Source: Nitrincola sp.
GTDB taxonomy: Bacteria; Pseudomonadota; Gammaproteobacteria; Pseudomonadales; Balneatricaceae
NCBI GenBank assembly: GCA_007125745.1
Contig: SLCQ01000177.1
Coordinates: forward strand, 1 to 34,146
Direction of reading: 5' to 3'
Length of the DNA: 34,146 nucleotides
A program made the translations under genes and the position numbers. Of this stretch, positions 5,365 to 32,880 are shown piece by piece. Position 1 is the stretch's first letter, and each line of letters begins with the position of its first letter. The notes beneath the pieces were generated by a model. It was not told where the DNA came from, did no database searches, and was given only the letters and a program-made list of their open reading frames with translations.

Positions 5365-5490
5365 CACACTGACTCCTTAATCACCCAAAGGTGATACCAC
5401 TAAGCCCTGTTTGCGAGCTTATATATATTGTATGCTATGCCGCATTTAGTCATCTTTCCAATTTTAACTGGGTGTCTGAGACATTGTTGA

Positions 5491-8121
<2,631 letters not shown>

Positions 8122-8131
8122 GAGCCTTTAT

Positions 8132-9684: not shown

Positions 9685-9688
9685 TTAG

Positions 9689-10036
9689 ATGATTCGTTAT
9701 TCTTGGATTCTCTTCACCATCACTGCGTTATTACTGACCGGATGCGACCGCGAGCCCTCACCTCAAAATATGACTCGAGGTGACCAGCTTTATGCCTACT
9801 ACTGTAAAGAGTGCCATACCTATAAAGGATTAGGTGACGAACTACAAAACTTACCCCCAGGCGTCAGCCAACTTGAAGTTCATGATGTGGTACTCATTAT
9901 TAAACATGGTGCGCAACTAGGACATCCTATGGGCACCTTTCCTGGCCTTAGCGATGAGCAAGCCTTTACCGTTGCTGAGTATGCCGTTCAGATGCGTCGA
10001 CGGATACGTGAAGAACAGTTAACCCACTCTGACTAA
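9689..10036 (+). CDS. Mono-haem c-type cytochrome, predicted lipoprotein
   Basis: Signal peptide with LLTGC lipobox; single CKECH haem motif; distal HPMGTFPGLSDEQ with candidate Met ligand. Confidence 0.85.
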   Translation: MIRYSWILFTITALLLTGCDREPSPQNMTRGDQLYAYYCKECHTYKGLGDELQNLPPGVSQLEVHDVVLIIKHGAQLGHPMGTFPGLSDEQAFTVAEYAVQMRRRIREEQLTHSD

Positions 10037-11463: not shown

Positions 11464-12517
11464 TTTTCTCCAGCGGAATTAGTAGTTGGAAACGCGTATT
11501 TCCAGGTTCAGTCGTGCATTCAATTAAGCCCTGATGACGATTAATAATCGACTGAGCAATCGACAAGCCAAGACCTGACCCCTCAGCACGACCTGTCACC
11601 ATCGGATAAAAAATAGACGATAAAAGATTGTCAGGAATACCTGGACCATTATCCATTATCTCTATTGCGCAGACTAAACGATGACGCTCAGTACCCAGCG
11701 TCATTTGGCGTAAAGCGCGTGTACGTATCGAAATACAAGGCGCTTCTGTTCCTGCTTCATGCATAGCCTGCATGGAGTTGCGTACTATGTTGAGTATGGC
11801 TTGAATGAGTTGCTCTTTATCTCCAGAAAACTCCGGAATACTGGGATCATAGTCTCGCTTTAATTCAATCTGGTCCGCAGACTCAGCTCGAACAAGACTG
11901 CAAACCCTTTCTAAAATAGCGTGAATATTGACATTTTCGAGATTGGGCAGTTTATGAGGCCCTAACAAGCGATCGACTAGGTTACGTAATCTATCAGCCT
12001 CATCGATAATCACTCGAGTATAATCATGCAACTCTTCATCGGCTAACTCTCTTTCCAGAAGTTGCGCGGCGCCTCGAATCCCGCCCAGCGGATTTTTAAT
12101 TTCATGCGCTAGCCCTCTGACCAAAGATCTCGCTGTTGCATGGCGTGTTAAAAGTTCCTCTTCACGCTCAATACGCATCAACCTATCCCGCGCCTGAATT
12201 TCAACCATCATTCCCAGACTGGGCGATAAATTCACGCTGTAGTCGATTAATGATTCATGCCCCATCGCATTCATCAAGCGCGCTTCCCGTTTGCTGTAGG
12301 GATGCATAGTCTTCATTGCATCTTTAAGCAATAGCAAGTCTTCTTCACTAAACATCAACCAATCTTGAATCGCTTTACCCCGAAGACGTCTGAGCGAAGC
12401 CTGTAACAGCATTTCAGCGGCAGGATTCATATACTGAATAAGCAATTGCTCATCCAATAAAATGACGGATGTTGTTAAATTATCTAACAACTGTTGATGA
12501 ATTGATCTCATGGGCAT
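11444..12517 (-). CDS. ntrB: Nitrogen regulation sensor histidine kinase NtrB
   Basis: PAS domain, H-box GLAHEIKNPLGGIRGAAQLLERE, DNGPGIP and GSGLGLS motifs; likely start ATG 12517 with purine-rich SD (ORF track extends to 12559). Confidence 0.96.
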   Translation of the reverse strand: MPMRSIHQQLLDNLTTSVILLDEQLLIQYMNPAAEMLLQASLRRLRGKAIQDWLMFSEEDLLLLKDAMKTMHPYSKREARLMNAMGHESLIDYSVNLSPSLGMMVEIQARDRLMRIEREEELLTRHATARSLVRGLAHEIKNPLGGIRGAAQLLERELADEELHDYTRVIIDEADRLRNLVDRLLGPHKLPNLENVNIHAILERVCSLVRAESADQIELKRDYDPSIPEFSGDKEQLIQAILNIVRNSMQAMHEAGTEAPCISIRTRALRQMTLGTERHRLVCAIEIMDNGPGIPDNLLSSIFYPMVTGRAEGSGLGLSIAQSIINRHQGLIECTTEPGNTRFQLLIPLEKNDENKR

Positions 12518-12641
12518 TAAAACTCTCCTCTTGCAATTATCTAGCAAGAACAGTGCCATATAAAAAAACAGCTTTGATCCAAAAAAGTGCAGAAAACATC
12601 AGAGTCACTTTCTTTGATTACTTATCATACAGCGACGGTTC

Positions 12642-12656
12642 GCACCATTATAGTGC
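12642..12656. promoter_or_regulatory. NtrC-type binding site upstream of ntrB, overlapping a TATAAT -10 on the minus strand
   Basis: GCACCATTATAGTGC = perfect GCAC-N7-GTGC; minus strand reads TATGCACTATAATGGTGCG. Confidence 0.8.
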
Positions 12657-12722
12657 ATAAAAGCCATCTAGGTGCATGATTAACGCAACCTATTTAAGCA
12701 CTTCCAACAAAAACTCACAGGC

Positions 12723-12752
12723 AAAAAAAAACCTCCTTTCGGAGGTTTTTTT
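12723..12752. terminator. Intrinsic terminator downstream of glnA (T tracts on both strands)
   Basis: AAAAAAAAACCTCC TTTC GGAGGTTTTTTT. Confidence 0.93.
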
Positions 12753-12762
12753 ATGGTCACAT

Positions 12763-14169
12763 TTACACTGAGTAGTAAAGATCAAACTCTACAGGGTGTG
12801 TAGTCATGTTTACGCGCTCAACTTCAGCACGTTTCAGACCAATGTACGCATCAAGCATATCCTTAGAGAACACACCACCACGGGTAAGGAACTCATGATC
12901 TGCTTCAAGCGCATCCAATGCTTCAGTCAAGCTCGACGCAACTGTTGGAATCGCAAGCGCTTCTTCCGCAGGAAGATCATAAAGATCCTTGTCTGCTGGA
13001 TCACCAGGATGAATCTTGTTCTGAATACCATCAATACCCGCCATCAACAATGCAGCGAAGCACAAGTATGGGTTCGCAGCTGGATCAGGGAAGCGAGCCT
13101 CAACACGACGAGCCTTAGGTGTAGTCGTGTAAGGGATACGCAAAGACGCTGAACGGTTACGCGCAGAGTAAGCCAACATAACAGGTGCTTCAAACCCAGG
13201 AACCAAACGCTTATAAGAGTTGGTTGAGGGGTTACACAGTGCATTCAGGGCTTTAGCGTGCTTGATGATACCGCCAATGTAGTAAAGTGCGTATTCACTC
13301 AAACCACCGTATCCGTCACCTGCAAAGATGTTTTTGCCATCTTTAGACATAGACAAGTGAACATGCATACCTGAACCGTTATCACCTACAAGTGGCTTAG
13401 GCATAAAGGTCGCTGTTTTACCATAGGCATGAGCAACGTTATGCACACAGTACTTCAGAATTTGTACTTCATCTGCTTTTTTGACCAACGTGTTACCGGC
13501 TACACCGATTTCACACTGTCCAGCGGTTGCCACCTCATGGTGATGTACTTCGATTTTAAGCCCCATGGCTTCCATCGCATCACACATAGCACCACGAAGA
13601 TCATGTAGAGAGTCGATTGGCGGTACGGGGAAGTAACCACCTTTCACACGTGGACGGTGACCGGTATTGCCACCTTCAATTTTGTGGCTAGACGCCCAAG
13701 ATGCTTCTTCAGATGCAATAGTATAGCCACATCCGCCGATATCAGCATGCCAAGTCACTTCATCAAATACAAAAAATTCAGGCTCTGGACCTAACATCGC
13801 AGAATCTGCAATACCCGTTGAAGCTAGGTATTGTTCTGCACGCAATGCAACTGAACGGGGATCACGATCGTAACCTTGGCCAGTTGCCGGCTCCACAATA
13901 TTACAACGAACAATGACAGTGGATGATTCAGAGAAAGGGTCCATAACAGATGCAGAGTCATCTGGCATCAGGATCATGTCAGATTCATTGATACCCTTCC
14001 AGCCTGCAATAGACGAGCCATCAAACATCTTACCTTCTTCAAAGAAAGAGTCACCCATGTCCGATACTGGAATCGTAACGTGTTGCTCTTTACCTTTAGA
14101 ATCCGTAAAACGAAGATCTACCCATTTGGCGTTATTTTCTTTGATCAGATTCAGAGTATGCTCTGACAT
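12763..14169 (-). CDS. glnA: Glutamine synthetase type I
   Basis: [27 protein letters not shown]-like ([12 protein letters not shown]), adenylylation-type motif DLYDLPAEE, 468 aa. Confidence 0.98.
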
Positions 14170-14258
14170 AGGACGCTCCTATTAATGTTCAAAATTAAGT
14201 TGCTCTAAGCCGGATCTGCCGGAATGCAAACCGACACGACTGCTTGTGATTATACAAA

Positions 14259-14273
14259 GCAATACCCGTGCCA
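14259..14273 (-). promoter_or_regulatory. Sigma-54 promoter of glnA
   Basis: Minus strand TGGCAC-GGGTA-TTGC, exact -24/-12 consensus, upstream of glnA. Confidence 0.92.
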
Positions 14274-14286
14274 GAGTTATAAAGCC

Positions 14287-14301
14287 GCACTATTTCAGTG
14301 A
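14287..14301. promoter_or_regulatory. NtrC-type site upstream of glnA (proximal)
   Basis: GCAC-TATTTCA-GTGA, 7/8 of GCAC-N7-GTGC. Confidence 0.55.
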
Positions 14302-14338: not shown

Positions 14339-14353
14339 GCCCCATTATAGTGC
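14339..14353. promoter_or_regulatory. NtrC-type site upstream of glnA (distal), overlapping TATAAT on minus strand
   Basis: GCCC-CATTATA-GTGC, 7/8 match; shares 15-bp string CCATTATAGTGCATA with the ntrB site at 12642. Confidence 0.7.
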
Positions 14354-17945: not shown

Positions 17946-19379
17946 ATGAGTTCAACCAAAATTTGGACCCATAAAGGCACCTTTTTACTTGCGGCAGTCG
18001 GGTCTGCCGTAGGCTTAGGTAACCTATGGCGCTTTCCCTATCTAACCGGCGAAAACGGTGGTGGAGCATTTATTCTTGTGTATGCCCTAACCATCGCCAT
18101 TGTCGGGATACCCATTCTTATCGCTGAAACCTTACTCGGTCGTTCAAGTCGTAAAAGCCCGATTATGGGTATGCAGTATCTCACTAAATCACATAATACG
18201 AGTCGTCAATGGCAGGCGATTGGATGGATGGGTGCCTTAGCCGCGTTCATTATACTAAGTTTTTACTCAGTTATTGCTGGCTGGGCCATCCACTATACTG
18301 GCCTGATGTTTTCAGGCTCACTGGTGGGCGCTGATGCAGAGCAGATCGGAGACTCATTCGGCGCATTATTAGCATCACCTGGCCTGCTACTTACCTACCA
18401 CACACTGTTTATTTTAGTGTCCGGGCTTATCGTCGGCATGGGTATTCATAAAGGTATTGAAAACGGCCTGCGCTTTCTAATGCCTGCGCTGTTTTTTATT
18501 TTAATGATCGTGCTGGGCTATGGCGTTATCGCCGGTGACGTGGGCTCTGCTATAAGCTTTCTCTTCACCTTTAACCTTGCAGATTTAAGCCTTGAAGGCT
18601 GGCTTCAAGCCATGGGGCAGTCCTTCTTTACGCTAAGCCTTGGCATGGGCGCAATCATGGCCTATGGCGCATACATGTCCAGCGAAGCTTCTTTAACCCG
18701 GACCGCTGTCTCTATCGCTTTTGTGGATACGGCCATCGCTCTTTTAGCCGGCATCGCCATCTTCTCGCTCGTCTTTGGCAGTGGTTTAGAAGCAGGACAA
18801 GGGCCTGGCTTGATGTTCGTTACCTTACCTATCGCCTTTGCGGAGCTTCCAGCGGGTTGGTTAATCGGTGGCGTTTTCTTCGTTTTAGTGATCGGTGCCG
18901 CAGTCACATCATCTATTTCGTTGATTGAACCTGTCGCCGCCTATCTAGTAGAACGTTTTGGCTTGTCACGCCCCAAAGCTGTCGGATTAATGGTGACATT
19001 TTGCTGGTTGCTGGGCTTAATGACGGTATTTAGCTTTAACCTCTGGTCAGAAGGGACCCTCACACATAGATGGTTTAATCGCACACCTTTTGATGTATTA
19101 GAATTCATTACCAACATTCTGATGCCATTGGGCGGCCTGTTGATCGCTCTTTTTGCAGGATGGGCGTTGACTCGAGACGAAGTGCTTAAAGAGATGGCAA
19201 CAAACGATACATGGTTCCAAGTATGGCAGTTCCTTGTTCGTTTCGTCGCACCGACAGCGGTTGCGTTTGTGTTCTTACGAACCATTCCACAGATTGATGG
19301 CTACGTTATCCCGGCCGTTGGCTCGATTCTATTGATCGGAGCCTTCACGGCCGGTAGAACCTTTGTTAACCGATCTTAA
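17946..19379 (+). CDS. Sodium-dependent transporter, neurotransmitter:sodium symporter family
   Basis: WTHKGTFLLAAVGSAVGLGNLWRFPYLTGENGGGAFILVY signature; about 12 TM segments. Confidence 0.93.
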   Translation: MSSTKIWTHKGTFLLAAVGSAVGLGNLWRFPYLTGENGGGAFILVYALTIAIVGIPILIAETLLGRSSRKSPIMGMQYLTKSHNTSRQWQAIGWMGALAAFIILSFYSVIAGWAIHYTGLMFSGSLVGADAEQIGDSFGALLASPGLLLTYHTLFILVSGLIVGMGIHKGIENGLRFLMPALFFILMIVLGYGVIAGDVGSAISFLFTFNLADLSLEGWLQAMGQSFFTLSLGMGAIMAYGAYMSSEASLTRTAVSIAFVDTAIALLAGIAIFSLVFGSGLEAGQGPGLMFVTLPIAFAELPAGWLIGGVFFVLVIGAAVTSSISLIEPVAAYLVERFGLSRPKAVGLMVTFCWLLGLMTVFSFNLWSEGTLTHRWFNRTPFDVLEFITNILMPLGGLLIALFAGWALTRDEVLKEMATNDTWFQVWQFLVRFVAPTAVAFVFLRTIPQIDGYVIPAVGSILLIGAFTAGRTFVNRS

Positions 19380-20020
19380 TCAACATCTCTGTTGTCCGCC
19401 TGCCAGTGCAGGCGGGCAAAGAGTACAGAACCATAGAAAATTACCACATAGCCTAATAGCTCAAGTCCTTCTTGTACGGAGTTTTTCACCAAAGCCGGGG
19501 CTTGAACACCCGCACCACTGTCTAATATGGCACTCCACAATGAACCGGTTCCAAAAATACGACTAAAAAAGAGTACGATCGCCAGACCCGCCAAAATATA
19601 AGCAAAGGGGTAAGATCGAGTGGCATCAGCCATGGCTGGCACCACAGTTTTACGGAATATAGCGGCAAGCGTAAAGCTGACTAGGATCATCACTGTGACT
19701 GGATACTTCCAGAAGCCATGCTGTATATGATCGAACAAGTAATCAAGCTCCCTTAAGAACATACATGCCAACAATCCCGCTACTAAAAACAGGAAGCCGC
19801 GTTGATCATTGAGCTTAAACGCCATCACATACATCACGATTGTCGAACACAGAAGTATCAACTCTTGGCTGATTTCTGTCACGCCTGTTTCTGGCATACC
19901 GTGGCGAATCACCACGACATCCAAATAGACAGCCAGTGGTGCCCACAGCATGCCTAGTACCAGAAACAGATACAGCAGTGCCGCTTGCTTAATCCTCTTT
20001 AAATCATCTTGCCTTGCCAT
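19376..20020 (-). CDS. Multi-pass membrane protein of unknown function
   Basis: 214 aa with about 6 hydrophobic segments; 4-bp convergent overlap with the NSS transporter. Confidence 0.7.
   Translation of the reverse strand: MARQDDLKRIKQAALLYLFLVLGMLWAPLAVYLDVVVIRHGMPETGVTEISQELILLCSTIVMYVMAFKLNDQRGFLFLVAGLLACMFLRELDYLFDHIQHGFWKYPVTVMILVSFTLAAIFRKTVVPAMADATRSYPFAYILAGLAIVLFFSRIFGTGSLWSAILDSGAGVQAPALVKNSVQEGLELLGYVVIFYGSVLFARLHWQADNRDVD
19396..19415. repeat. GC-rich perfect inverted repeat in the 3' end of the membrane protein gene
   Basis: CCGCCTGC-CAGT-GCAGGCGG, extendable with wobble pairs; no U tract. Confidence 0.75.
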
Positions 20021-20123: not shown

Positions 20124-21101
20124 CTAGCCTTGACTTTGCGACAACTCAGCCAAGACGCGGCTTTCCTCTATAAGCCTGAACCAGGTGTCAGCAATTTGAT
20201 CATGCAATTGGCTGATATCTACCTGTATATCATCAATATATTGATGAAGTTTATCTGGCTCAGAGGCTAATAGTGATACATCGGCCTCTGTTAGATGCTG
20301 AATACAATGATCAGCCGCCGCTTGGGCTTTACTACCACCCGGTAAGGTATCTAGCTCTCGGCTGATGCGTGTAATACAGCAGGCAACCGCGCGCGGAAAC
20401 TGACGATCTTGTAATAAAAATCTAAGCACATCAGGTCCTCGAACACGTAAGCGAACATGTTGACGATACATCTGAAAACCGGTCAATGACTTCAGTACGC
20501 TAACCCACTGTAAGGTTTCGAAGGGGGTGAAGTCATCAGAGTTCCGAGGCAATAAATTAGCTGAGCGAACATCAATAATCCGCGTGGTCATATCGGCTCG
20601 TTCAATTTGGCGACCCAGCATGAGAAACGTACGGGTTTGGGTGTAACTGAGCGTACCCGCAATCATCCCATTAACCGCTTCACAGCTACGGATTACACGG
20701 TTTAAAAAGACATCCCGATTGCGAGAATTGATGCCGGATTCAGCTTGCTGTGACACAGCTAGATAAACCTGGTTGACCTCTTCCCAGATACGCTGAGGCA
20801 TAACATCTCGAGTCGTTCTTAGGTTTTCCCTTGCCGCGGCCAAGGATGAGATGATGGACCCTTGATAACGTCGATCACCGCAAAGAAAGTTAAGCACACT
20901 CACTTCATCACGTTGTTCATAATATTTATCGAACAACTCATCACTGCCCGAAATCGACACTAATGTAGACCAACCTAGGCGGGTAGCTTTTGGAAAATCG
21001 AGTAATAAGTGGCTATTGACACTAATCAGTCGAGCCGTATCTTCAGCACGCTCTAAATAGCGGGCTAACCAGTAAACACTTTCAGCAACTCTTGACAGCA
21101 T
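20124..21101 (-). CDS. Alpha-E domain protein (DUF403)
   Basis: MLSRVAESVYWLARYLERAEDTARLI N-terminus; FLLQDRQFPRAV; 4 nt after the ATP-grasp gene. Confidence 0.92.
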   Translation of the reverse strand: MLSRVAESVYWLARYLERAEDTARLISVNSHLLLDFPKATRLGWSTLVSISGSDELFDKYYEQRDEVSVLNFLCGDRRYQGSIISSLAAARENLRTTRDVMPQRIWEEVNQVYLAVSQQAESGINSRNRDVFLNRVIRSCEAVNGMIAGTLSYTQTRTFLMLGRQIERADMTTRIIDVRSANLLPRNSDDFTPFETLQWVSVLKSLTGFQMYRQHVRLRVRGPDVLRFLLQDRQFPRAVACCITRISRELDTLPGGSKAQAAADHCIQHLTEADVSLLASEPDKLHQYIDDIQVDISQLHDQIADTWFRLIEESRVLAELSQSQG

Positions 21102-21104
21102 TGT

Positions 21105-22562
21105 TTAACCCTCATTCACATCGACAATCCAGGTGTCTTTACTGCCACCACCCTGGGAAGAATTGACAACTAACGAACCTTTTGTCATCGCAACACGTGT
21201 TAACCCACCCGTTGTCACATAGGTATCATGGCCACTGGATAAAATAAACGGACGCAGGTCAACATGCCTGGGTTCCATCGCATGACCACACAAGGTGGGC
21301 GCTGTTGACAGGTTTAAAGTGGGTTGCGCCATATAATTTCTAGGATTGTTTCGGATCAACTCGGCAAACGCTTTACGCTCCCGTTTAGTAGAATGCGGCC
21401 CAATCAACATGCCATACCCACCCGACTCATTGGCAGGCTTCACCACCAAGGACTCCAAGTTAGCCAGTACATATTCCTTATCTTCATCAAACATACACAG
21501 GTAACTGGGCACATTGGGAATTAAGGGTTCTTGGTCCAAATAGTAACGAATAATTTTAGGTACAAAAGCGTAGACCACCTTATCATCTGCAACGCCCGCA
21601 CCAGGAGCATTAGCCAGAGCCACCTTACCTGCTCTCCAAGACCGCATTAACCCTGGAACACCTAACATCGAGTCTGGATTAAATGCTTCTGGATCAAGAA
21701 ACATATCATCAATGCGTCGGTAGATAACATCCACGCGCTGAAGGCCATCTACGGTTTTCATATACACGCAGTCATCATCACCGACAATTAAGTCCGTGCC
21801 CTCAACAAGCTCAACACCCATTTGCTGAGCCAAATAAGAGTGCTCGTAATAAGCTGAGTTGTAGATACCCGGCGTAAGCACCACAATTTGCGGTTCATCA
21901 CCGGGACGTGGTGACATACTGGCCAGCATATCGAAAAGTTGATCGGTATAGTCATCGACTGGTTGAATTTGCCCAGTCGCAAACATATCGGGAAGTACAC
22001 GCTTGGTTACGTTACGATTTTCCAGCATGTAGGATACACCCGAAGGTACTCTAAGATTGTCTTCCAGAACATAGAGGGTTCCATCACTATCTCTGACAAG
22101 ATCGGAGCCGCAAATGTGAGCCCAGATGCGATGCGGCGGCGTTATACCGACACACTGTGGTCGAAAATTAACCGACTGAGCTAAGACTTCTGCCGGAAAA
22201 ACACCATCTTTGATGATACGTTGATCATGATATAAGTCATCGATAAACATATTCAGTGCTTGGACCCGCTGACGCAGTCCAGCCGCTGTTCTTTCCCATT
22301 CCGGGCGCGGAATAATTCTTGGTACCGGATCAAATGGCCATGCCCGGTCAATCATATTACCTTCCGAATAGACCGTAAATGTAATACCCATTGTTTGTAT
22401 CGCAACGTCAACTGCATGCTTATGCTCGATCAGTTCCGAAGCTTCTAAATCTTGGAAATAATCACATAGCATTTGTGCTTCTGGGCGAGGGGTTCCAGGT
22501 GATGCAATCAGCTCGTCATAAAATCCCTTGCACGCATAGTCTTGCCAATTTACTTTTATCAT
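21105..22562 (-). CDS. Circularly permuted ATP-grasp protein (DUF404/DUF407 type)
   Basis: DNLRVPSGVSYMLENR, LGVPGLMRSWRAGKVALANAPGAGVADDK, LVVKPANESGGYGMLIG, EPRHVDLRPF, NSSQGGGSKDTW. Confidence 0.93.
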   Translation of the reverse strand: MIKVNWQDYACKGFYDELIASPGTPRPEAQMLCDYFQDLEASELIEHKHAVDVAIQTMGITFTVYSEGNMIDRAWPFDPVPRIIPRPEWERTAAGLRQRVQALNMFIDDLYHDQRIIKDGVFPAEVLAQSVNFRPQCVGITPPHRIWAHICGSDLVRDSDGTLYVLEDNLRVPSGVSYMLENRNVTKRVLPDMFATGQIQPVDDYTDQLFDMLASMSPRPGDEPQIVVLTPGIYNSAYYEHSYLAQQMGVELVEGTDLIVGDDDCVYMKTVDGLQRVDVIYRRIDDMFLDPEAFNPDSMLGVPGLMRSWRAGKVALANAPGAGVADDKVVYAFVPKIIRYYLDQEPLIPNVPSYLCMFDEDKEYVLANLESLVVKPANESGGYGMLIGPHSTKRERKAFAELIRNNPRNYMAQPTLNLSTAPTLCGHAMEPRHVDLRPFILSSGHDTYVTTGGLTRVAMTKGSLVVNSSQGGGSKDTWIVDVNEG

Positions 22563-22605
22563 AGCGTGTATCCATCATTATCATCATTACGATAGTATTT
22601 TTACT

Positions 22606-22620
22606 GCAAATGCTATACCA
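22606..22620 (-). promoter_or_regulatory. Candidate sigma-54 promoter for ATP-grasp/alpha-E genes
   Basis: Minus strand TGGTAT-AGCAT-TTGC; GG-N10-GC spacing kept, -24 box deviates (TGGTAT vs TGGCAC). Confidence 0.55.
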
Positions 22621-22684
22621 AAACTCACGACCTTGATCAGACAGGAAATTGCGTTCAATAAATACGCACCCTTAAAGCACACGC

Positions 22685-22699
22685 GCACCAACCTTGTGC
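22685..22699. promoter_or_regulatory. Candidate NtrC-type site in the divergent amidoligase intergenic region
   Basis: GCACCAACCTTGTGC, perfect GCAC-N7-GTGC. Confidence 0.6.
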
Positions 22700-22706
22700 A
22701 AAAACC

Positions 22707-22721
22707 GCTTTAATATTGTGC
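22707..22721. promoter_or_regulatory. Weaker candidate NtrC-type site
   Basis: GCTT-TAATATT-GTGC, 6/8 of the motif, 22 bp centre-to-centre from the stronger site. Confidence 0.35.
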
Positions 22722-22805
22722 GTGAACCCGTCACTTAATTTACTTTAGTTTGCTTCTATAAAGCCTTCAAATAGGATGATGAAGACTTTTATAGGTTTAT
22801 TTAAT

Positions 22806-22862
22806 AACAAGTGGCATATCTGTTGCTGATGAACCATCATAGGTAATTATTAGCCACTTGTT
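22806..22862. repeat. 10-bp perfect inverted repeat (37-nt spacer) upstream of the DUF2126 gene
   Basis: AACAAGTGGC (22806-22815) and GCCACTTGTT (22853-22862); left arm overlaps the -24 box of the sigma-54 candidate. Confidence 0.85.
22812..22826 (+). promoter_or_regulatory. Sigma-54 promoter for the DUF2126/ATP-grasp/transglutaminase operon
   Basis: TGGCAT-ATCTG-TTGC, GG-N10-GC; predicted start near 22838, about 42 nt upstream of ATG 22880. Confidence 0.72.
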
Positions 22863-22879
22863 CAGCAAGGTAACTGATC

Positions 22880-25800
22880 ATGACGATTCGCGTTGCACTG
22901 AAGCACACCACTCGCTACGACTTTGACAAGCCGGTTGGCGTATCACCTCACTTAATTCGCTTAAGACCCGCTCCACATTGTCGAACGCCCATTGATGCAT
23001 ACTCACTCAAGGTGTCAGGGGGTGAATACTTTATCAATTGGCAACAGGATCCTTTTGGAAACCACTTGGCCAGGCTGGTGTTTCCGGAAAAGATCGATCA
23101 TTTAGAGGTGAGTGTAGAACTGCTTGCTCCAATGACAGTTATCAACCCTTTTGACTTCTTTGTTGAAGACTATGCTGAAAAGTTTCCTTTTAGCTACACA
23201 GATGGGCTGAAGAAAGAACTCGCACCCTATCTCGAAATTACCGAAAATGGCCCTTTACTCACCAAATGGCTTAAAGGCGTTACACAAAAACCTACGCCGA
23301 TTGTTGATTTTCTGGTTGCAATCAACCAGCGTCTTGAAGAGGATATTGAATACACCATCCGCATGGAACCTGGTGTCCAAACGGCCGAAGAAACACTCAC
23401 TAAACAGTTAGGTTCATGTCGAGATTCTGCTTGGCTAATGGTTCAAGTATTACGCCATCTGGGACTCGCGGCCCGTTTTGTATCCGGATATTTAATTCAG
23501 TTAACCGCCGACGTTAAAGCCCTAGATGGCCCATCAGGGACTGAAACCGACTTTACCGACTTGCATGCCTGGACAGAAGTGTTTATTCCAGGGGCTGGTT
23601 GGGTTGGCCTAGATCCAACATCAGGCTTGTTTGCCGGAGAAGGCCATATACCGCTTGCGGCAACCCCTGACCCATCCAGCGCGGCACCCATTACCGGAGC
23701 AACGGAACCATGTGAGGTCAGCTTTGACTTCAGTATGTCGGTCGCTCGTGTACATGAAGATCCACGGGTTACGAAACCCTATACAGAAGAGGCTTGGGAA
23801 GCGATCAATCAACTTGGCGAACAGGTTGATCAGGTGCTTGATGCTGAAGATCTACGACTCACCATGGGCGGTGAGCCCACCTTTGTGTCCATTGATGATA
23901 TGGACGCGGCAGAATGGACTATCGCCGCTCAAGGCCCCAACAAACGCCGTTTAGCAGAAGTTTTGATGCGACGTTTACGCCCACATTTTGCACCCAACAG
24001 CTTGATTCACTATCAACAGGGTAAGTGGTACCCAGGTGAATCCTTGCCACGTTGGGCGCTCGCTTGCTATTGGCGGAAAGATAACAAGCCCATGTGGCAA
24101 GAGAGTGAATGGCTGGCAGACATGTACAAGGACTATGGCTTCAACCAAAATGATGCCCGCATCTTTACCAAGCACCTGGTTCAGCGTCTGCGTATACACG
24201 ACAAACATATTATTCCTTGCTATGAAGATGCCTATTACTATTTATGGCTTGAACGAAAGCAACCCGTTGATATAGACCTAAGCAAAGAAGATCTCAAATC
24301 AGATGAAAACCGTCGTCGTTTGGCACAGCTTCTAGAGCGGGGCCTCGATGAAATCACAGGCTTTACACTACCACTGAGTCGAGATTTGAAATCAAAGCAC
24401 TGGCGATCAGGTCACTGGCAGGTGCGTCGCCGCCGACTCTATCTGATTCCCGGTGACTCACCCATGGGATATCGATTGCCATTAAATGAACTGCCTCTTG
24501 CAGGAAGAGAGGAGCTTCCTCAACCCGCATCTCTGTTTGAACTGAAACCACCGCTTCCCGATATGCATGGGGAAATTGCCAGCCGCTACAGCGCCTTACA
24601 GCAATCGTTCAACACGACCGCCATGAGTGATGACAAGCATCAGAATCTTCAGAAACAACAACTCGATGATTCAAGCGATAGCGTCCTACATACAGCATTA
24701 TGTGTTGAGCCGCGTGAAGGAAAACTCTTTGTCTTCCTCCCCCCGCTAGCAGAGCTTGAACACTATTTAGAGCTGTTAGTGCATATTGAAAACACGGCTA
24801 AGGCGCTACAGATGCCGGTCTGTTTAGAAGGCTATCCACCGCCCTCGGATACTCGAATTGAAAAATTTATGATCACGCCCGATCCCGGGGTGATTGAAGT
24901 GAACATCATGCCATCAAAAAGCTGGCAAGACTTGGTCAACACGACGACACGACTGTATGAAGAAGCACGACTGTCTCGTTTAGGGACAGAAAAGTTTATG
25001 CTTGATGGTCGTCATACAGGTACAGGCGGTGGTAATCATGTGACATTGGGTGGTGCTACGCCTGCTGATTCACCTTTTTTACGTCGCCCCAGCTTATTAA
25101 CCAGCATGATTACTTACTGGCAACATCACCCTAGCTTGTCTTTTTTATTCGCTGGCATGTTTCTAGGGCCTACCAGTCAAGCACCTCGAATTGATGAAGC
25201 CCGCCATGAAGCCTTGTATGAGTTGGAAATTGCGATTCAACAAATGCCTTTAGGCGAAGTACCGCAACCCTGGATGGTCGATCGTTTATTAAGAAACCTG
25301 TTGACCGATATTACTGGGAACACACACCGCGCTGAGTTTTGTATCGATAAACTTTTCTCACCTGACTCAGCCACAGGACGACTCGGGCTACTTGAGTTAC
25401 GAGGCTTTGAGATGCCTCCACATGCTCGAATGAGCTTGATGCAACAGCTGTTGATTCGCGCCCTTGTTGCGCGCTTTACCCGATCACCCTATCGCAAGAA
25501 ACTGGTACGTTGGGGTACACAACTGCATGACCGCTGGATGCTACCGCATTATTTGTGGAAGGACCTGCTGGATATACTTGATGATCTTCGTAGTTTTGGT
25601 TTTGACTTTAACCCTGAGTGGTTTGAACCTTTTCTCGAGTTCCGCTTCCCACAATATGGCGAGGTGATCTATGATCAGGTTCGCATTGAATTACGCCAGG
25701 CCATTGAGCCCTGGCATGTGTTAGGTGAGGAAGTGAGTGGCGGAGGAACGGCACGATACGTAGATTCTTCTGTTGAGCGCCTTCAGGTGAAACTCTTTGG

Positions 25801-26212
25801 CTACAACCCTGAGCGCCATGTTTTAACCTGTAATGGCAGGCGAGTACCTTTACAGCCGACAGGCGTCAACTCTGAAGCGGTCGCCGGTATTCGCTATCGT
25901 GCTTGGCAACCACCATCGGCACTTCACCCACTGATACCGGTTCATGCACCCTTAACGTTTGACCTGGTTGATACTTGGAATCAACGTTCATTAGGGGGGT
26001 GTACTTATCATGTTTCTCATCCAGCAGGACGGAATTACGAAACCTTCCCAGTCAATGCCAATGAAGCTGAAGCCAGGCGTTTATCGCGCTTCTGGGCTCA
26101 TGGTCATACACAAGGAAAACAATACATACCACCAGAGGACATTCCGGGCGAGTACCCTCATACGCTGGACTTACGATTTAACCACAGCAATCCTGGCGAG
26201 TCTGAGATATGA
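22880..26212 (+). CDS. Transglutaminase-like plus DUF2126 (predicted circularly permuted GS-like ligase) protein
   Basis: Bacterial transglutaminase N-terminus (ALKHTTRYDFDKPVGVSPHLIRLRPAP), triad LGSCRDSAW / DLHAWTEV / GLDPTSG; LTMGGEPTFVSIDD and GTGGGNHVTLGGATPADSPFLRRPSLL in the C-terminal part; AAGG SD. Confidence 0.93.
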   Translation: MTIRVALKHTTRYDFDKPVGVSPHLIRLRPAPHCRTPIDAYSLKVSGGEYFINWQQDPFGNHLARLVFPEKIDHLEVSVELLAPMTVINPFDFFVEDYAEKFPFSYTDGLKKELAPYLEITENGPLLTKWLKGVTQKPTPIVDFLVAINQRLEEDIEYTIRMEPGVQTAEETLTKQLGSCRDSAWLMVQVLRHLGLAARFVSGYLIQLTADVKALDGPSGTETDFTDLHAWTEVFIPGAGWVGLDPTSGLFAGEGHIPLAATPDPSSAAPITGATEPCEVSFDFSMSVARVHEDPRVTKPYTEEAWEAINQLGEQVDQVLDAEDLRLTMGGEPTFVSIDDMDAAEWTIAAQGPNKRRLAEVLMRRLRPHFAPNSLIHYQQGKWYPGESLPRWALACYWRKDNKPMWQESEWLADMYKDYGFNQNDARIFTKHLVQRLRIHDKHIIPCYEDAYYYLWLERKQPVDIDLSKEDLKSDENRRRLAQLLERGLDEITGFTLPLSRDLKSKHWRSGHWQVRRRRLYLIPGDSPMGYRLPLNELPLAGREELPQPASLFELKPPLPDMHGEIASRYSALQQSFNTTAMSDDKHQNLQKQQLDDSSDSVLHTALCVEPREGKLFVFLPPLAELEHYLELLVHIENTAKALQMPVCLEGYPPPSDTRIEKFMITPDPGVIEVNIMPSKSWQDLVNTTTRLYEEARLSRLGTEKFMLDGRHTGTGGGNHVTLGGATPADSPFLRRPSLLTSMITYWQHHPSLSFLFAGMFLGPTSQAPRIDEARHEALYELEIAIQQMPLGEVPQPWMVDRLLRNLLTDITGNTHRAEFCIDKLFSPDSATGRLGLLELRGFEMPPHARMSLMQQLLIRALVARFTRSPYRKKLVRWGTQLHDRWMLPHYLWKDLLDILDDLRSFGFDFNPEWFEPFLEFRFPQYGEVIYDQVRIELRQAIEPWHVLGEEVSGGGTARYVDSSVERLQVKLFGYNPERHVLTCNGRRVPLQPTGVNSEAVAGIRYRAWQPPSALHPLIPVHAPLTFDLVDTWNQRSLGGCTYHVSHPAGRNYETFPVNANEAEARRLSRFWAHGHTQGKQYIPPEDIPGEYPHTLDLRFNHSNPGESEI

Positions 26213-26243
26213 TATGGCGTTTTGATCATTGAACAAGGATAAA

Positions 26244-28853
26244 ATGACAGACTTTAGCCTGCTTAGCAGTGAAATGCAGCAACGACTGCTGGCCTATGTG
26301 ACCAGCAGACAGGCATTTGCTGACCCCTCGAATGGATTTGACGAGTTGTTAAGCACCTCTGGAAAGATTCGCTCTCAGTGGCAGCCTGTACTTGAAGAGC
26401 TAGCGAAACTAGACCGAGAAGCTTTACTAAACCGTTGCGAGGAAGCACAAAACCTGCTCCATGAAAATGGTGTCACCTTCAATACCTATGAAGACGACCC
26501 TGGCCAGCTAAGGTCATGGCAGTTGGACAGCTTACCCTACGTTATCAGTACTCAGGACTGGGAGTTTCTTGAAGGTGGACTAATGCAACGCTCTCGATTA
26601 CTGGAAGCGATTGTTGAAGATTTGCATGGTCCAAGATCATTGATAACTCAGGGATTGCTTCCGGCAGAGTTGATTCATAGTTTTCCCGGCTATCTTCTCC
26701 CGGCAGTCAGTGATCAACCCTTAAGAAGGCCCATGTTGATTTTTCATGGGACCGATGTCATACGCAACGCGATGGGAGAGTGGGAGGTACTTTGTGACTG
26801 GACACAGTCGCCCTCAGGAGCTGGCTATGCACTTGAAAACCGAATCACGCTCGCTAGAGCTTTTCCAAATCAATACCGTGAAGCGCCTCTAAAACGTTTA
26901 GCAGGGTTCTTACAAGCACAACACAGAGCGCTAGCATCTTTATGTACCAGCCAACGAGAGCAACCTAATATCGTATTGTTATCACCCGGGTCAGGTAGCC
27001 CAGGTTATTTTGAGCACGCATGGCTTGCCAATTATATGAATTTTTCACTAGTTGAAGGAGCAGACTTGGTCGTACGTGATGGCCAAGTGTCTATGCGAAC
27101 ACTAGGTGGACTCAGGCAAGTAGACGTGATTGTCAGGCACATCAATGATCCTTGGTGTGATCCATTAGAGCTTCGTGGAGACTCATTACTCGGTGTTCCA
27201 GGTTTAATGCAAGCGGCACGAGATGGTGAAGTCGAAATCGCTAATGCTCTGGGCACTGGCATCCTAGAAAACCCAGCTTTAGCGGCATTTTTAGATGAGA
27301 TATGTCAAACCTTGCTCGGCGAGTCGCTTTTAATTAAGCATCGCAAAACGCTATGGGGCGGTGATAGTGAACATCTCTCGCAAATACTCATGTCACCCAA
27401 TACCTGGCTGGTTCGAGATATTACCGAACCAGCCAAAGTGATAAAGCCCGAGGTATTAAACGATGGCGAGAGGCTCCAACTACTCGATAAATTACAATCC
27501 ACACCTTGGCGCTTTGTTGCTCAAGCCAAGTTAAGCGGTGCTACATCACCGATCTATAATAGACGCAAAGATATTTTCGAAGCCAATAACGTCAATTTAC
27601 GATTTTTTAGCTTGATTGAACCTGATCACCTGTTTATCACCCCTGCAGATCGCCGATACCGTATCATGCCTGGGGGGCTAGCCTGGGTTGGCGAGCCTGG
27701 CACCCTGTTAATGGAAAGCAGAACCGTTAAAGATATCTGGGTGATGGCACCTGTACCCCAGCCTCATATCAGCATGCTGAGCCAAGCCAGTGGTCCAATT
27801 GTTGTCACGCGAGACGGTACAGATCTCGCTTGCCGAGTCGCAGACAGTTTATTCTGGATGGGTCGATATGGTGAACGTTTAGATGTACGCTCTCGATTAC
27901 TTCGAGAAACGTTAGGGCGCTTCTTACAGGAAGATCAGTCTGCAGAAGAGAGTGGACTTCTACCCGATCTCTTTACAGCGCTTGAAATTCAACTACCTGA
28001 ATTAGCAATGGAAGAAGAGCGTCTATCCAATATTGAAGACCCCCAACGTCATCAGCAACTCTATCGCAGTTATCGCAATAGTCTACTGGAACTCTTTGAA
28101 GAAAATCACCCTGACGGCATGCCGTGGTTATTTAATCACTTTATCAGAAACTGCCGCTCGGTTCGTGATCATCTAGGTGATGATGCATGGCGTACCGTCA
28201 ACAATTTGCGCCAGCGCTTTAACGACATGCCCAGAACACAAGGCATCATCGTTGGACAACGCCAACTTGAAGGTGTCGTCACCGATCTGGCAGCCTTCTT
28301 TGGCCTATGTAACGAAACCATGCCACACCACTATGGCTGGCGCTTTTTAGATATTGGCCGCTTTATTGAGCGTGTTTTATATACACTGGAGTTGTTAAAG
28401 CTTGCGCTATTAAGTGCTCGACAACCTGGCATTGCGCTTTGTGAGGTCGTCTTAGCGACCACCGACAACTTTACCGTCTATCGTCGACGTTATCGTTCAC
28501 AGCTACACCCCAGCGCTATTCTTGACTTATTATTGTTCGATGAGACCAACCCCCGCTCTATTGGCTATATGTTAAAACGATTGGAAAGACAGATCCGGCG
28601 CTTGCCACAACCAAACCACTCGCCTTATCGTAACCTAGAGTCTAGACTGGTGATTCAGGCAACCAGTGCGTTGCACCTTGTGGATATCGATCGATTAAGC
28701 CAGATAGAGTCGAGTAAAGCATCACAAGTGGTGCTATCAACGCTTCTTGATCAGCTGATAGAGCCCTTATCTGAGTTGACCAATGCCATATCACATAGTC
28801 ACTTTAGTCATGTTGAAGCCCCTGTTCAACTGGTGACTATGCAATCATCATAA
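26244..28853 (+). CDS. Circularly permuted ATP-grasp + alpha-E fusion protein
   Basis: N-terminal DUF404/407-like (SPSGAGYALENR, DSLLGVPGLMQAARDGEVEIANALG) and C-terminal alpha-E (CRVADSLFWMGRYGERLDVRSRLL); ATG 26244 has AAGGA SD (ORF track TTG 26229). Confidence 0.9.
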   Translation: MTDFSLLSSEMQQRLLAYVTSRQAFADPSNGFDELLSTSGKIRSQWQPVLEELAKLDREALLNRCEEAQNLLHENGVTFNTYEDDPGQLRSWQLDSLPYVISTQDWEFLEGGLMQRSRLLEAIVEDLHGPRSLITQGLLPAELIHSFPGYLLPAVSDQPLRRPMLIFHGTDVIRNAMGEWEVLCDWTQSPSGAGYALENRITLARAFPNQYREAPLKRLAGFLQAQHRALASLCTSQREQPNIVLLSPGSGSPGYFEHAWLANYMNFSLVEGADLVVRDGQVSMRTLGGLRQVDVIVRHINDPWCDPLELRGDSLLGVPGLMQAARDGEVEIANALGTGILENPALAAFLDEICQTLLGESLLIKHRKTLWGGDSEHLSQILMSPNTWLVRDITEPAKVIKPEVLNDGERLQLLDKLQSTPWRFVAQAKLSGATSPIYNRRKDIFEANNVNLRFFSLIEPDHLFITPADRRYRIMPGGLAWVGEPGTLLMESRTVKDIWVMAPVPQPHISMLSQASGPIVVTRDGTDLACRVADSLFWMGRYGERLDVRSRLLRETLGRFLQEDQSAEESGLLPDLFTALEIQLPELAMEEERLSNIEDPQRHQQLYRSYRNSLLELFEENHPDGMPWLFNHFIRNCRSVRDHLGDDAWRTVNNLRQRFNDMPRTQGIIVGQRQLEGVVTDLAAFFGLCNETMPHHYGWRFLDIGRFIERVLYTLELLKLALLSARQPGIALCEVVLATTDNFTVYRRRYRSQLHPSAILDLLLFDETNPRSIGYMLKRLERQIRRLPQPNHSPYRNLESRLVIQATSALHLVDIDRLSQIESSKASQVVLSTLLDQLIEPLSELTNAISHSHFSHVEAPVQLVTMQSS

Positions 28854-28866: not shown

Positions 28867-29772
28867 ATGAAATATCACCTTAAACATACTACTCGCTATG
28901 ACTACAGCAGTGATGTAACGCTCAGCCATAACGAGGCACGACTACTACCTCGCAGTCTACCTTGGCAACAAGTGAGCAGTGCTCAGCTGACGATTAACCC
29001 GCAACCGGTTCGTTTACGAGAACGCCTAGATTTTTTCGGAAATAGAGTCAGCTACTTCACCATTCAAGAGTTACATAGCTGTCTTGAAGTAACCTTAGAT
29101 TCTGAAATCACAACCTTGACACGACAAATGCCACCTCAGGGTATCAATATCAGCTGGAATGATGCTGTTGAACGGATGAAATCACAGCGTAGTTTCAATC
29201 CTCTTTTAGAGGATGCACGCTTAATGATGCTGGACTCTGACTTTGTTCAAAGCCACCCTTCATTAATGGAATATGCCAGCCAAGCATTTCAAAAAAATCG
29301 ACCCATTGTCGAAGCAATCCAAACCCTTAATCAGCAGATCTTTACCGATTTTACTTATGACCCTGAACACACAACCATTGCCACACCTGTACTGGATGTT
29401 CTCAATAGTCGGCGAGGAGTGTGCCAAGACTTTGCGCATTTAGCCATTGGTTGCCTTCGCTCAATCGGTCTTCCAGCCCGCTATGTCAGTGGCTATATGG
29501 AGACACTCCCACCTCCAGGACAGCCTAAACTACAAGGTGCAGATGCAACTCATGCATGGTTAGCCGTGGCAATTCCAGACTGGGGTTGGCTGGAAATAGA
29601 CCCTACAAATGGTACTTTGCCGGATGAGCGTTATTTAACCCTAGGCTGGGGGCGTGACTTTGCTGATGTTACCCCACTAAAAGGCGTGATGAATGGCGGT
29701 GGTAAAGACTCGCTTTCTGTTGCTGTCGACGTAACTCCTTTATCCGATAAACATATATTAGAGCTTTTTTAA
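28867..29772 (+). CDS. Transglutaminase family protein
   Basis: LKHTTRYDYSSDVTLSHNEARLLPR; RRGVCQDFAHLAIG, ATHAWLAV, EIDPTNG catalytic motifs. Confidence 0.94.
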   Translation: MKYHLKHTTRYDYSSDVTLSHNEARLLPRSLPWQQVSSAQLTINPQPVRLRERLDFFGNRVSYFTIQELHSCLEVTLDSEITTLTRQMPPQGINISWNDAVERMKSQRSFNPLLEDARLMMLDSDFVQSHPSLMEYASQAFQKNRPIVEAIQTLNQQIFTDFTYDPEHTTIATPVLDVLNSRRGVCQDFAHLAIGCLRSIGLPARYVSGYMETLPPPGQPKLQGADATHAWLAVAIPDWGWLEIDPTNGTLPDERYLTLGWGRDFADVTPLKGVMNGGGKDSLSVAVDVTPLSDKHILELF

Positions 29773-29778: not shown

Positions 29779-30702
29779 ATGCTTTCATCATCGATCGACT
29801 GGCGTGCACGTCTGGCCTTGCTATGCGCCATGGCAATTTGGGGAAGCTCCTTTATTGCATTAAAAATCGCCGTTGACGCCATGCACCCTATGCAGGTGAT
29901 TTTTTTACGAATGTTGATTGGCAGTATGGTCTTTATCGCCATACTCCCCCTATGGAAACGAGGGTTTAATTACCAGAAAGGTGATTGGAAGTGGTTGCTG
30001 GCTATGGCGCTGTTTGAGCCATGTTTGTATTTTATATTTGAAAGCCTTGCTCTGAAATATACGACTGCAGGCCAAGCAGGCATGATCGCCAGTATCTTAC
30101 CGTTAATGGTTGCCATAGGTGCATGGCTATTTTTAAAAGAACGCATTTCAAAATATCAATGGAGTGGCTTTATCATTGCCGTGATTGGCGTAATCTGGAT
30201 GTCATGGGGAAGTGATGTCACCAGCCATGCACCCAACCCTCTACTGGGTAATAGCTTAGAAATGATGGCGATGGTGTGTGCAGTGGGTTATACCCTCGTT
30301 GTAAAGCGTTTAAGCGATCGCTATAGCCCCTTATTTTTAACCGCCTTACAAACCCTAATAGGCACCTTCTTTTTCTTACCTTTAGCACTCTCCAGCCCTA
30401 TTCCAGATTCCATTGAGCTCGAGGTATTCATCTATATTATTTACTTGGGAGTTTTCTCAACCTTAGGTGCTTATGGCCTATACAACTATGCGTTAAGTAA
30501 AGCCCATGCAAGTAAAGTGGCTGGGTATACCAACCTGATCCCAGTTTTCGCTTTACTATTTGCTTATGTGTTTTTAAACGAAGTGCTTAACCTGCAACAG
30601 GGCATTGCTATTTTAGTGGTCTTTGCTGGCATCATGCTAAGTCAGTATAGTCACCGAGGAAGAAAGGTCTTGACCGACATTCCACCAGGAACGGTTCAAT
30701 AA
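29779..30702 (+). CDS. DMT superfamily (EamA) transporter
   Basis: About 10 TM; AIWGSSFIALKIAVD, GYTLVVKRLSDRYSP; starts 7 nt after the transglutaminase stop. Confidence 0.92.
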   Translation: MLSSSIDWRARLALLCAMAIWGSSFIALKIAVDAMHPMQVIFLRMLIGSMVFIAILPLWKRGFNYQKGDWKWLLAMALFEPCLYFIFESLALKYTTAGQAGMIASILPLMVAIGAWLFLKERISKYQWSGFIIAVIGVIWMSWGSDVTSHAPNPLLGNSLEMMAMVCAVGYTLVVKRLSDRYSPLFLTALQTLIGTFFFLPLALSSPIPDSIELEVFIYIIYLGVFSTLGAYGLYNYALSKAHASKVAGYTNLIPVFALLFAYVFLNEVLNLQQGIAILVVFAGIMLSQYSHRGRKVLTDIPPGTVQ

Positions 30703-30732: not shown

Positions 30733-32880
30733 CTACGCAGGCAAGTCTGTTTGATTATGTCTATTGAGTGAGCGCCAATGCTGGTTCTCATCCGATAAGA
30801 TCCGCGTCAACGTTGCATAGAGATCACGCAACTCTCGTGTGTGGCGCCAACTATTATGTGAACCAGTGTTTTGTTTTTTAACTAGAGTTCTCTGAAATTC
30901 GTTACAGGCTTCATTTAAAATAGTTAGTTCACCTGATACTTGACCCGCTAAGGATGACATACGCACTACCTCATTGTGATTCAAAATACCGTGGATCGCA
31001 GCACCCCAAGCAGGCAAGAATGCTGTAAAAATAAGTATCCAGGATATGTTCACAAAAAAGTGTAATGTCACCGCTATAAAGGTGATAAAAAACAGACTAA
31101 ATGACAAGCGGTGAAGATAGACATGATCTCTGTGTAAATTTTGATGACTGCGGGTAAAATATCGCCTGTGCTCATCGAGTACTTGTCGTAAATAGTCTGC
31201 CATCCCCATATTATGCTCAGTTAAACAGTAGCGCTTAGGGTTAGATCGACTCACCGGTAGACCTGAACTGATCAATACACGGTGCAATAACCAGTGCTCT
31301 GCACTAATAAGTTCACCGCCTCTTGCGTTAGATTTAGGCCCCCAAAAAGGCCGATTAAACGCCCGAGGAAGCACCAGCAAGGGAAAGCCTATGCGCAAAT
31401 AGCGCAACTGCTCCGCCAGATAGCGATAGCTCATCCAGTGACCATGCCAATCACGAAACCTTGCTTGCAATACGTGACTGACAATAAACCTGAGTAAAAT
31501 AAACTCCATCACCGCCCAAATCATCAATAAGCCAGGCATATTAGCCGGCCAAATTTTCAGTGCTCCTGCAACAGCACAAAAAACGGCAAAGGCAGCGGCA
31601 TAATAGATCATCCAGATCCCATCACGTTGCCGACGACCAAAGCAACTCGCTTGTGTCTCTGCCCAGTTAAAGATCTGTTCAAGATCAGGCTCATCTATAG
31701 GGTGCTTTTCCTCGTCAGCGGGCAATACCTGTTGATACCCCTTAGTCTGTCCAGGCAATCGCAACGAAGCTTTAAAGTCTTCATAATTTAAGCGTGCAAT
31801 GGAAGAACAAAACAGATGCAGGCGTCCGATTAATCTCTCTTTTACACTAAGAGCGTCCTGCCCTCGAGTCAACAACTCCAGCAAACGGCGAGCTTGCGAA
31901 GGGTTCGGAGGATTAAGCATCACTTTCAACCACAACTTAGCGCCAGACAACCACTGAAACAGATTAGGAGGCCGCTCCTTGACTGATGGTTGAAGGCAGT
32001 ATTGAATCCACAATATAACTAAGCCAAACAGGGACGCTTGTGAAGAGATACTCCTCAGGGTCTGATTTTCTATAGAGCCGTCTTGTGTTGCTGGTAAAAA
32101 AGGTAGCAGTAAAAGAGACATCCACTCTTGTAGTATCAGTTGACGTTGCTGAGTAGACGTAACTTCAGTGAAATACGCAAGAATTGACTCTGTATCCCGA
32201 CTTAAGGTTTCCAGCTCCAACAGTCGAGCATCAGTCAACCCCGATGGGCGATTAATCAGCAACTGAGGCTGATCCTTGGCTGGATCCAGCTTAACCAGCA
32301 AAATAGGTTTGCGCCGCATGAGCGCAGTCGAAATGATACGTGCCGTTCCGCTGGTGATGATAACGGGTTCCTGGGTGTCCCAAACTGCGATTAACAAATC
32401 AGAGAAGCTCAGCGCAATGTCATCGCGTAAAGAATAATCATCTTGGGTCAAAGGCTGATTCGTAATACTGGCTGACATACCCAATACCACTTTATGATCA
32501 GCTTCTTGTGGTCGTGGATGGCCGTCGCTTTCGTCAGCGGCCTCTGTTTGACGCACTTCTTGAGCGACCAATGTCGAGAGTTCATAGCCACTTTCGTGTG
32601 CAAGCTCTGCGGCCATTTGGTCAATACCTGTGGCTTCCCCCGTCACCAGCTTAAGCCGACTAGGTTCTGTAGCGTAAATATCATGAGCTTGCGAAAAAGC
32701 ATCATCTGCCGCCGTTTTAACATCGACTAGGAGTTGCTTGAGTATGACTCTCAAGTCATTTTCACGTACTTGAGAGTCTTTTAACCAGTGTCGGTGTAAG
32801 CGTTGCATTCGATGACCTGCGACCAACACACCAAAGTCTGGGCGCAAGCGAGGTCGTTGAAGCTGTTCTATAGAAGACAC
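30733..32880 (-). CDS. SLOG-like N-terminal domain fused to SLATT-like multi-TM C-terminal region
   Basis: GVLVAGHRMQRL, LVTGEATGIDQMAAELAHESGY, ALSFSDLLIAVWDTQEP...SGTARIISTALMRRKPILLVK; C-terminal 2TM followed by WMSYRYLAEQLRYLRIGFPL, then a second 2TM block; GTG start, weak SD. Confidence 0.7.
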   Translation of the reverse strand: MSSIEQLQRPRLRPDFGVLVAGHRMQRLHRHWLKDSQVRENDLRVILKQLLVDVKTAADDAFSQAHDIYATEPSRLKLVTGEATGIDQMAAELAHESGYELSTLVAQEVRQTEAADESDGHPRPQEADHKVVLGMSASITNQPLTQDDYSLRDDIALSFSDLLIAVWDTQEPVIITSGTARIISTALMRRKPILLVKLDPAKDQPQLLINRPSGLTDARLLELETLSRDTESILAYFTEVTSTQQRQLILQEWMSLLLLPFLPATQDGSIENQTLRSISSQASLFGLVILWIQYCLQPSVKERPPNLFQWLSGAKLWLKVMLNPPNPSQARRLLELLTRGQDALSVKERLIGRLHLFCSSIARLNYEDFKASLRLPGQTKGYQQVLPADEEKHPIDEPDLEQIFNWAETQASCFGRRQRDGIWMIYYAAAFAVFCAVAGALKIWPANMPGLLMIWAVMEFILLRFIVSHVLQARFRDWHGHWMSYRYLAEQLRYLRIGFPLLVLPRAFNRPFWGPKSNARGGELISAEHWLLHRVLISSGLPVSRSNPKRYCLTEHNMGMADYLRQVLDEHRRYFTRSHQNLHRDHVYLHRLSFSLFFITFIAVTLHFFVNISWILIFTAFLPAWGAAIHGILNHNEVVRMSSLAGQVSGELTILNEACNEFQRTLVKKQNTGSHNSWRHTRELRDLYATLTRILSDENQHWRSLNRHNQTDLPA

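Follow-up and report, generated by a model that had tools for sequence, protein, structure and literature searches.

The two divergent halves of a putative amidoligase cluster in this Nitrincola sequence are parted by a short gap in which outward-facing sigma-54 promoter elements flank an NtrC-type palindrome, and nitrogen regulation of the cluster is very likely real. We consider it highly probable, from the motifs, their conservation and their genomic context, that nitrogen limitation switches on both sigma-54 promoters through phosphorylated NtrC bound at the central palindrome. The window, that is, the whole stretch of 34,146 nucleotides analysed, is a single contig from the draft genome G000 (2.52 Mb). 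From ORF to ORF, the gap spans 22563–22879 (317 bp) and separates minus-strand CP-ATP-grasp and Alpha-E genes from a plus-strand DUF2126 group. The features of cluster and gap are as follows.

20124–21101, minus strand: Alpha-E protein, gene 2 of the left operon (Pfam PF04168)
21105–22562, minus strand: circularly permuted (CP) ATP-grasp type 2 protein, gene 1 of the left operon (Pfam PF14403/PF04174)
22605–22620, minus strand: predicted sigma-54 −24/−12 element TGGTATAGCATTTGCA of the CP-ATP-grasp/Alpha-E operon, predicted start about 22594
22666–22680, no strand assigned: possible second, weak NtrC-type site GCACCCTTAAAGCAC, 6/8 arm bases, 19 bp upstream of the main site
22684–22700, no strand assigned: main NtrC-type palindrome CGCACCAACCTTGTGCA, candidate common enhancer, arms exact in 10/11 Nitrincola-group loci, spacer variable
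22707–22721, no strand assigned: weak half-site GCTTTAATATTGTGC, 6/8 arm bases, poorly conserved in that form
22812–22827, plus strand: predicted sigma-54 −24/−12 element TGGCATATCTGTTGCT of the DUF2126 operon, predicted start about 22838
22880–26212, plus strand: transglutaminase-like and DUF2126 putative amidoligase, 1110 aa, gene 1 of the right operon (Pfam PF08379, PF01841, PF09899)
26229–28853, plus strand: CP-ATP-grasp/Alpha-E fusion protein (Pfam PF14403/PF04174/PF04168)
28867–29772, plus strand: transglutaminase-like protein (Pfam PF08379/PF01841)
29779–30702, plus strand: EamA-family transporter after the right operon (Pfam PF00892)

DUF2126, CP-ATP-grasp, Alpha-E and transglutaminase domains are thus all encoded in adjacent genes, the combination by which membership of this cluster type was assigned, and the EamA transporter gene is present at the cluster only in closer Nitrincola relatives. 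Such clusters occur in several bacterial phyla; in the literature we found no biochemical data on peptide-ligase activity, nothing on DUF2126, and no known product of clusters with this domain set. Two neighbouring genes are conserved in Nitrincola. One adjoins the cluster and encodes a 715-aa protein (30733–32880, minus strand) that matches no Pfam family and shows a weak SLATT-domain hit at its C-terminus (29.5 bits vs a cutoff of 41); the other, 3′ of the Alpha-E gene, encodes a hydrophobic, membrane-like protein of 214 aa (19376–20020, minus strand) without a family match.

The sigma-54 sites in the gap read TGGCATATCTGTTGC on the plus strand (22812–22826) and TGGTATAGCATTTGC on the minus strand (22606–22620), with GCACCAACCTTGTGC (GCAC-N7-GTGC) between them at 22685–22699; all three motifs lie where the first-pass annotation, made from the letters alone, had placed them. 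The palindrome centre falls at −146 and −98 from the predicted starts at 22838 (plus) and 22594 (minus), respectively, each start being placed 12 nt after its −12 element; both distances are within enhancer range, and the starts and distances given in that annotation follow from the coordinates. Both promoter sites carry the GG-N10-GC / TGGCAY-N5-TTGC element, the minus site (TGGTAT) with one deviation from TGGCAY. An approximate matrix, with weights based on the published consensus, scored the plus site (TGGCAT) at 16.1 and the minus site at 13.5; further high scores in promoter position within the window occur at glnA (19.6) and ntrB (15.7). The window contains five matches to TGGYRY-N5-TTGC where 1.03 would be expected, a count reached in 0/100 shuffles; two of them fall in the gap, and single matches lie upstream of glnA (14259) and at ntrB (12544). 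In addition, rpoN is encoded in the same genome (501.8 bits, G000:C77). Element, conservation among orthologues (see below) and rpoN are all present, as expected of sigma-54-dependent promoters, and we predict both sites to be such. It could be argued from the off-consensus sequence and lower score of the minus site that only one operon is controlled by NtrC and sigma-54, the other site being decorative or very weak and its operon using another promoter. This we regard as improbable: the minus site is conserved as strictly as the plus site in the Nitrincola group, Halopseudomonas, Zobellella and Pseudohongiella, often as TGGTAC, and none of the sigma-70-like sites sought in the gap exceeds chance.

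Exact GCAC-N7-GTGC occurs twice in the window against 0.88 expected, which is not significant alone; its weight therefore comes from conservation and from position and context. On a matrix trained on glnA and ntrB sites, the central site of the window scores 13.1, compared to 14.6–23.7 in relatives. The weaker copy that had been noted at 22707 is present, but the better secondary half-site is that at 22666–22680, the equivalent position of which gives a 7/8 arm match in four relatives (L010, L011, L014 and L104). A terminator-like hit at 22684–22700 is the NtrC palindrome itself; its T-run is weak, and we do not regard it as a terminator.

The window also contains glnA and, about 10 kb from the gap, ntrBC; their features are as follows.

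10033–11463, minus strand: ntrC, the presumed activator (NCBIfam PRK10923 equivalog, 786 bits vs a cutoff of 620)
12543–12558, minus strand: predicted sigma-54 element before ntrBC, TGGCACTGTTCTTGCT, matrix score 15.7
12641–12657, no strand assigned: NtrC site before ntrB, CGCACCATTATAGTGCA, exact motif at 12642–12656
14258–14273, minus strand: predicted sigma-54 element before glnA, TGGCACGGGTATTGCT, conserved in the genus

GCAC-N7-GTGC had been reported before both glnA and ntrB. It is exact before ntrB, but the sites before glnA are degenerate, with only 7/8 versions of the NtrC-type motif (GCCCCATTATAGTGC at 14339–14353 and GCACTATTTCAGTGA at 14287–14301). Throughout the genus, NtrC-type sites are found at the glnA and ntrB promoters and a strong sigma-54 site at every glnA promoter; four genomes of the genus are without a strong sigma-54 site at ntrB. 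Within the longest ntrB ORF, which begins at 12559 (minus strand), lies the sigma-54 element at 12543–12558; the ntrB profile match starts at residue 20, and an ATG behind AGGAGAG near 12516 is the likelier start.

To place the gap among its orthologues, DUF2126 relatives were drawn from related genomes and from named GTDB genomes, their neighbours were mapped, and the upstream gap was scanned. Sigma-54 sites facing both ways were found at threshold in 27/37 non-redundant divergent loci, compared to 0.025 expected from dinucleotide shuffles of the same gaps. Both are present in 11/11 Nitrincola-group loci, all of which keep the plus element as TGGCATATC-NN-TTGCT and the minus element as TGGTAYRGCAWTTGCW, although such counts are not independent events because genomes of the genus are related; the pair also occurs in Zobellella, Halopseudomonas and Pseudohongiella relatives. 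Invariant positions in the Nitrincola alignment are largely confined to the promoter pair, the palindrome between them and the edges of the genes. The central site is exact in ten of the 11 members, with 7/8 arm bases in the remaining one (L011), and shuffled gaps yield a site of this quality at a rate of ~0–5% each. Its 7-base spacer varies (CAACCTT, CTCTTTA, CATTATA, TTAAATA, CAAAATA and others), a contrast with the arms that is partly built in because sites were picked by arm match. Failure of the motifs to persist in relatives had been named as one outcome that would count against nitrogen control; the comparison was run, and the sigma-54 pair and central palindrome are kept across the Nitrincola group.

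Beyond the divergent layout, ten more distant genomes carry co-directional clusters (ATP-grasp, Alpha-E and DUF2126 on one strand), and a forward sigma-54 site (score of at least 11.5) lies 45–196 bp before the ATP-grasp gene in 9/10 where that gene was found, suggesting that sigma-54 control follows the cluster through rearrangement. Saccharospirillum and Marinospirillum have swapped the divergent-pair partners and retained the site before DUF2126, which is weak in Saccharospirillum (12.7–13.5). The Halomonas-type and Gluconacetobacter loci scanned were without the sigma-54 pair. Three Modicisalibacter/Halomonas loci (L058, L060 and L095) have the same divergent layout, with both sigma-54 sites and the NtrC site gone, a lineage-specific loss. 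An Enterobacter roggenkampii plasmid from a blood isolate (L153; NZ_CP116251.1; 90.7 kb, typed as IncFII) also carries, at 4603–13794, a full cluster of CP-ATP-grasp, Alpha-E, DUF2126, ATP-grasp and transglutaminase genes, the first of which is preceded at ~370 bp by a sigma-54-like site.

Regulon statistics were computed in G010, a 4.2-Mb, 99% complete relative, by setting the 50 listed exact NtrC palindromes, out of 60, against the strong sigma-54 sites. At least seven G010 promoters have an exact palindrome 40–250 bp upstream of a strong sigma-54 site, whereas randomised positions gave a mean of 0.12 and never more than 3 over 10,000 trials. Among the matches listed are the promoters of glnA, ntrBC, a nitrate reductase (a molybdopterin oxidoreductase of the assimilatory nitrate reductase type), urease (ureABC) and an ABC importer operon, along with both sides of the cluster; the combination of NtrC and sigma-54 sites in these matches marks almost only nitrogen genes and the amidoligase cluster. 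The site in the gap resembles the organism's glnA and ntrB sites and is common to known nitrogen genes. Within G000, urea-transporter-like ABC genes are followed by a strong sigma-54 site (G000:C288). Further afield, the amidoligase cluster of an Acidithiobacillus MAG (L065, 3588–13424) directly adjoins ntrB, ntrC and glnA; the cluster and ntrB are each preceded by NtrC and sigma-54 sites, an arrangement that lends gene-neighbourhood support to a nitrogen role. Chance resemblance of the motifs, with a cluster that is not nitrogen-regulated, could appeal to the exact NtrC motif, which alone is not over-represented in the window. We find this scarcely credible, as it is contradicted by conservation, geometry and regulon-wide statistics, and by the experimental NtrC/sigma-54 dependence of the orthologous operon in Burkholderia cenocepacia (PMC5491218). 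Conservation, the G010 regulon and this orthologue all support the first-pass proposal that the cluster is nitrogen-switched.

The NtrC site is distributed more patchily than the promoters, reaching threshold in 16/37 divergent loci, and it is not kept wherever the sigma-54 pair is kept. Its absence or weakness in Pseudohongiella, one pseudomonad group and others with the pair indicates that NtrC need not activate everywhere, which limits the claim for the wider family, though nitrogen control of the cluster in the window does not require such universality. The sigma-54 promoters might alternatively be driven mainly by another enhancer-binding protein, e.g. a CbrB-like carbon regulator, with GCAC-N7-GTGC accessory or accidental. 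The wider conservation of the sigma-54 pair is in keeping with this, as are the Pseudohongiella gaps, which have a mostly intact pair and no NtrC site above background, while the glnA sites of the same genomes are canonical. Several Pseudohongiella-group gaps have a different conserved element, TTGTATC...GGCAACWG, present once or twice per genome in the genomes searched. The gap of Pseudomonas sp. WN033 (L100) contains a perfect TGTAACACT-GCT-AGTGTTACA palindrome that includes the published CbrB subsites GTAACA/TGTTAC (PMC6296734). However, all 11 Nitrincola-group members keep the NtrC palindrome, ten of them in exact form, and nitrogen genes of G010 carry the same pairing of NtrC and sigma-54 sites; CbrAB has been described as a pseudomonad-only system (PMC6296734); and in the loci examined no NtrC-related enhancer-binding-protein gene lies beside the cluster, save ntrBC (L065) and a distant two-component pair (L074). 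A different main activator in the window is therefore unlikely, and CbrB as a general activator, raised by the L100 palindrome, was rejected for Nitrincola.

In six gaps (L053–L056, L107 and L108), TTGTATC...GGCAACWG lies between the sigma-54 promoters and is a possible site of another activator. The L053 contig, from a bin labelled Rhodoferax sp. OV413 MAG, has a Pseudohongiella-like cluster and promoters and is probably mis-binned. The Pseudohongiella element and the L100 palindrome hint at a possible enhancer swap. Tentatively, sigma-54 control may be an ancient, nearly fixed trait of DUF2126 amidoligase clusters, one that withstands gene rearrangement, in which the enhancer between the promoters has been exchanged, with NtrC sites in Nitrincola/Zobellella and Burkholderia and another cluster-specific element in the Pseudohongiella group. 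If so, the product would be a stress or nutrient-limitation product linked to sigma-54 activators, and not to nitrogen alone.

For the window we favour activation by NtrC at the central palindrome. Nitrogen shortage would lead NtrB to phosphorylate NtrC, dimers of which would occupy the palindrome at 22684–22700, probably aided by the weak neighbour at 22666–22680. The resulting NtrC oligomer would loop to sigma-54 polymerase at the two outward −24/−12 promoters, with starts 98 and 146 bp off, and both cluster halves would be switched on: the left CP-ATP-grasp and Alpha-E genes, and the right DUF2126 amidoligase, fused ATP-grasp/Alpha-E and transglutaminase genes. We infer that NtrC binds and activates transcription in Nitrincola and that one enhancer serves both promoters; the ligase system, through its peptide product or the breakdown of that product, may serve nitrogen economy. 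Regulation and domain content together allow the guess that the enzymes make or salvage a nitrogen-containing peptide or amide. The company of glnA, ntrBC, urease and nitrate reductase genes in so small a regulon points to nitrogen limitation as the condition for seeking this product, for which named Nitrincola species offer culturable relatives.

Precedent exists in B. cenocepacia H111, where I35_5080-83 (BCAM1233–1236) are common sigma-54/NtrC targets, and BCAM1233, 1234, 1235 and 1236 were lowered 8.2-, 9.4-, 9.4- and 6.0-fold, respectively, in an ntrC mutant (PMC5491218). BCAM1233 is a DUF404/DUF407 protein, BCAM1234 a DUF403 protein and BCAM1236 a large transglutaminase-like protein (PMC5491218); the CP-ATP-grasp family was earlier called DUF404/407, and the Alpha-E family DUF403 (PMC3597751). 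In a second B. cenocepacia strain (L151), the cluster order of CP-ATP-grasp, Alpha-E, transglutaminase and DUF2126 matches BCAM1233–1236, the DUF2126 protein is 57% identical to that of the window, and a canonical NtrC site, TGCACCGTTGTGGTGCG, lies 80 bp upstream of a sigma-54 site, AGGCACGTTCCTTGCA, before the first gene. The Burkholderia and Nitrincola clusters are alike in protein set and in having an NtrC site and sigma-54 promoter upstream; they differ in that BCAM1233–1236 form a single-promoter co-directional operon, whereas the window has two divergent operons with one promoter each and a central candidate enhancer in common.

Pseudomonas putida PP_2685–2688 (the Anbu operon) is up under nitrogen limitation, an effect assigned to NtrB/NtrC (PMC7801951, PMC3325844, PMC8050072, PMC5666114), and a PP_2688 promoter fragment responded 3.7-fold to nitrogen depletion (PMC7801951, PMC8050072). 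This operon resembles the window's cluster in its CP-ATP-grasp and transglutaminase genes and in induction by nitrogen limitation, but it has an Anbu proteasome-like subunit, and the publications cited here name no DUF2126 protein for it. The domain content of the window's cluster is also that of the ATP-grasp/Alpha-E/transglutaminase amidoligase systems predicted by Iyer et al. (2009) to synthesize or modify peptides, a prediction that, per the citing papers (PMC3597751, PMC5666114), concerns enzymes and not regulation. A publication on the nitrogen transcriptome of Paraburkholderia phymatum does not mention the cluster, and a transglutaminase homologue in a Caulobacter NtrC paper was ruled out as the same cluster, being the capsule regulator hvyA. 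In Escherichia coli, the hyp/hyc region is a divergent sigma-54 promoter pair with activator sites in common; it likewise places enhancer sites between two outward −24/−12 promoters, with another activator and other genes. Overall, the NtrC/sigma-54 dependence in B. cenocepacia and nitrogen induction in P. putida are precedents for the physiological claim; the Nitrincola cluster would extend the Burkholderia dependence to Oceanospirillales-type bacteria, with sigma-54 promoters that outlast gene reordering.
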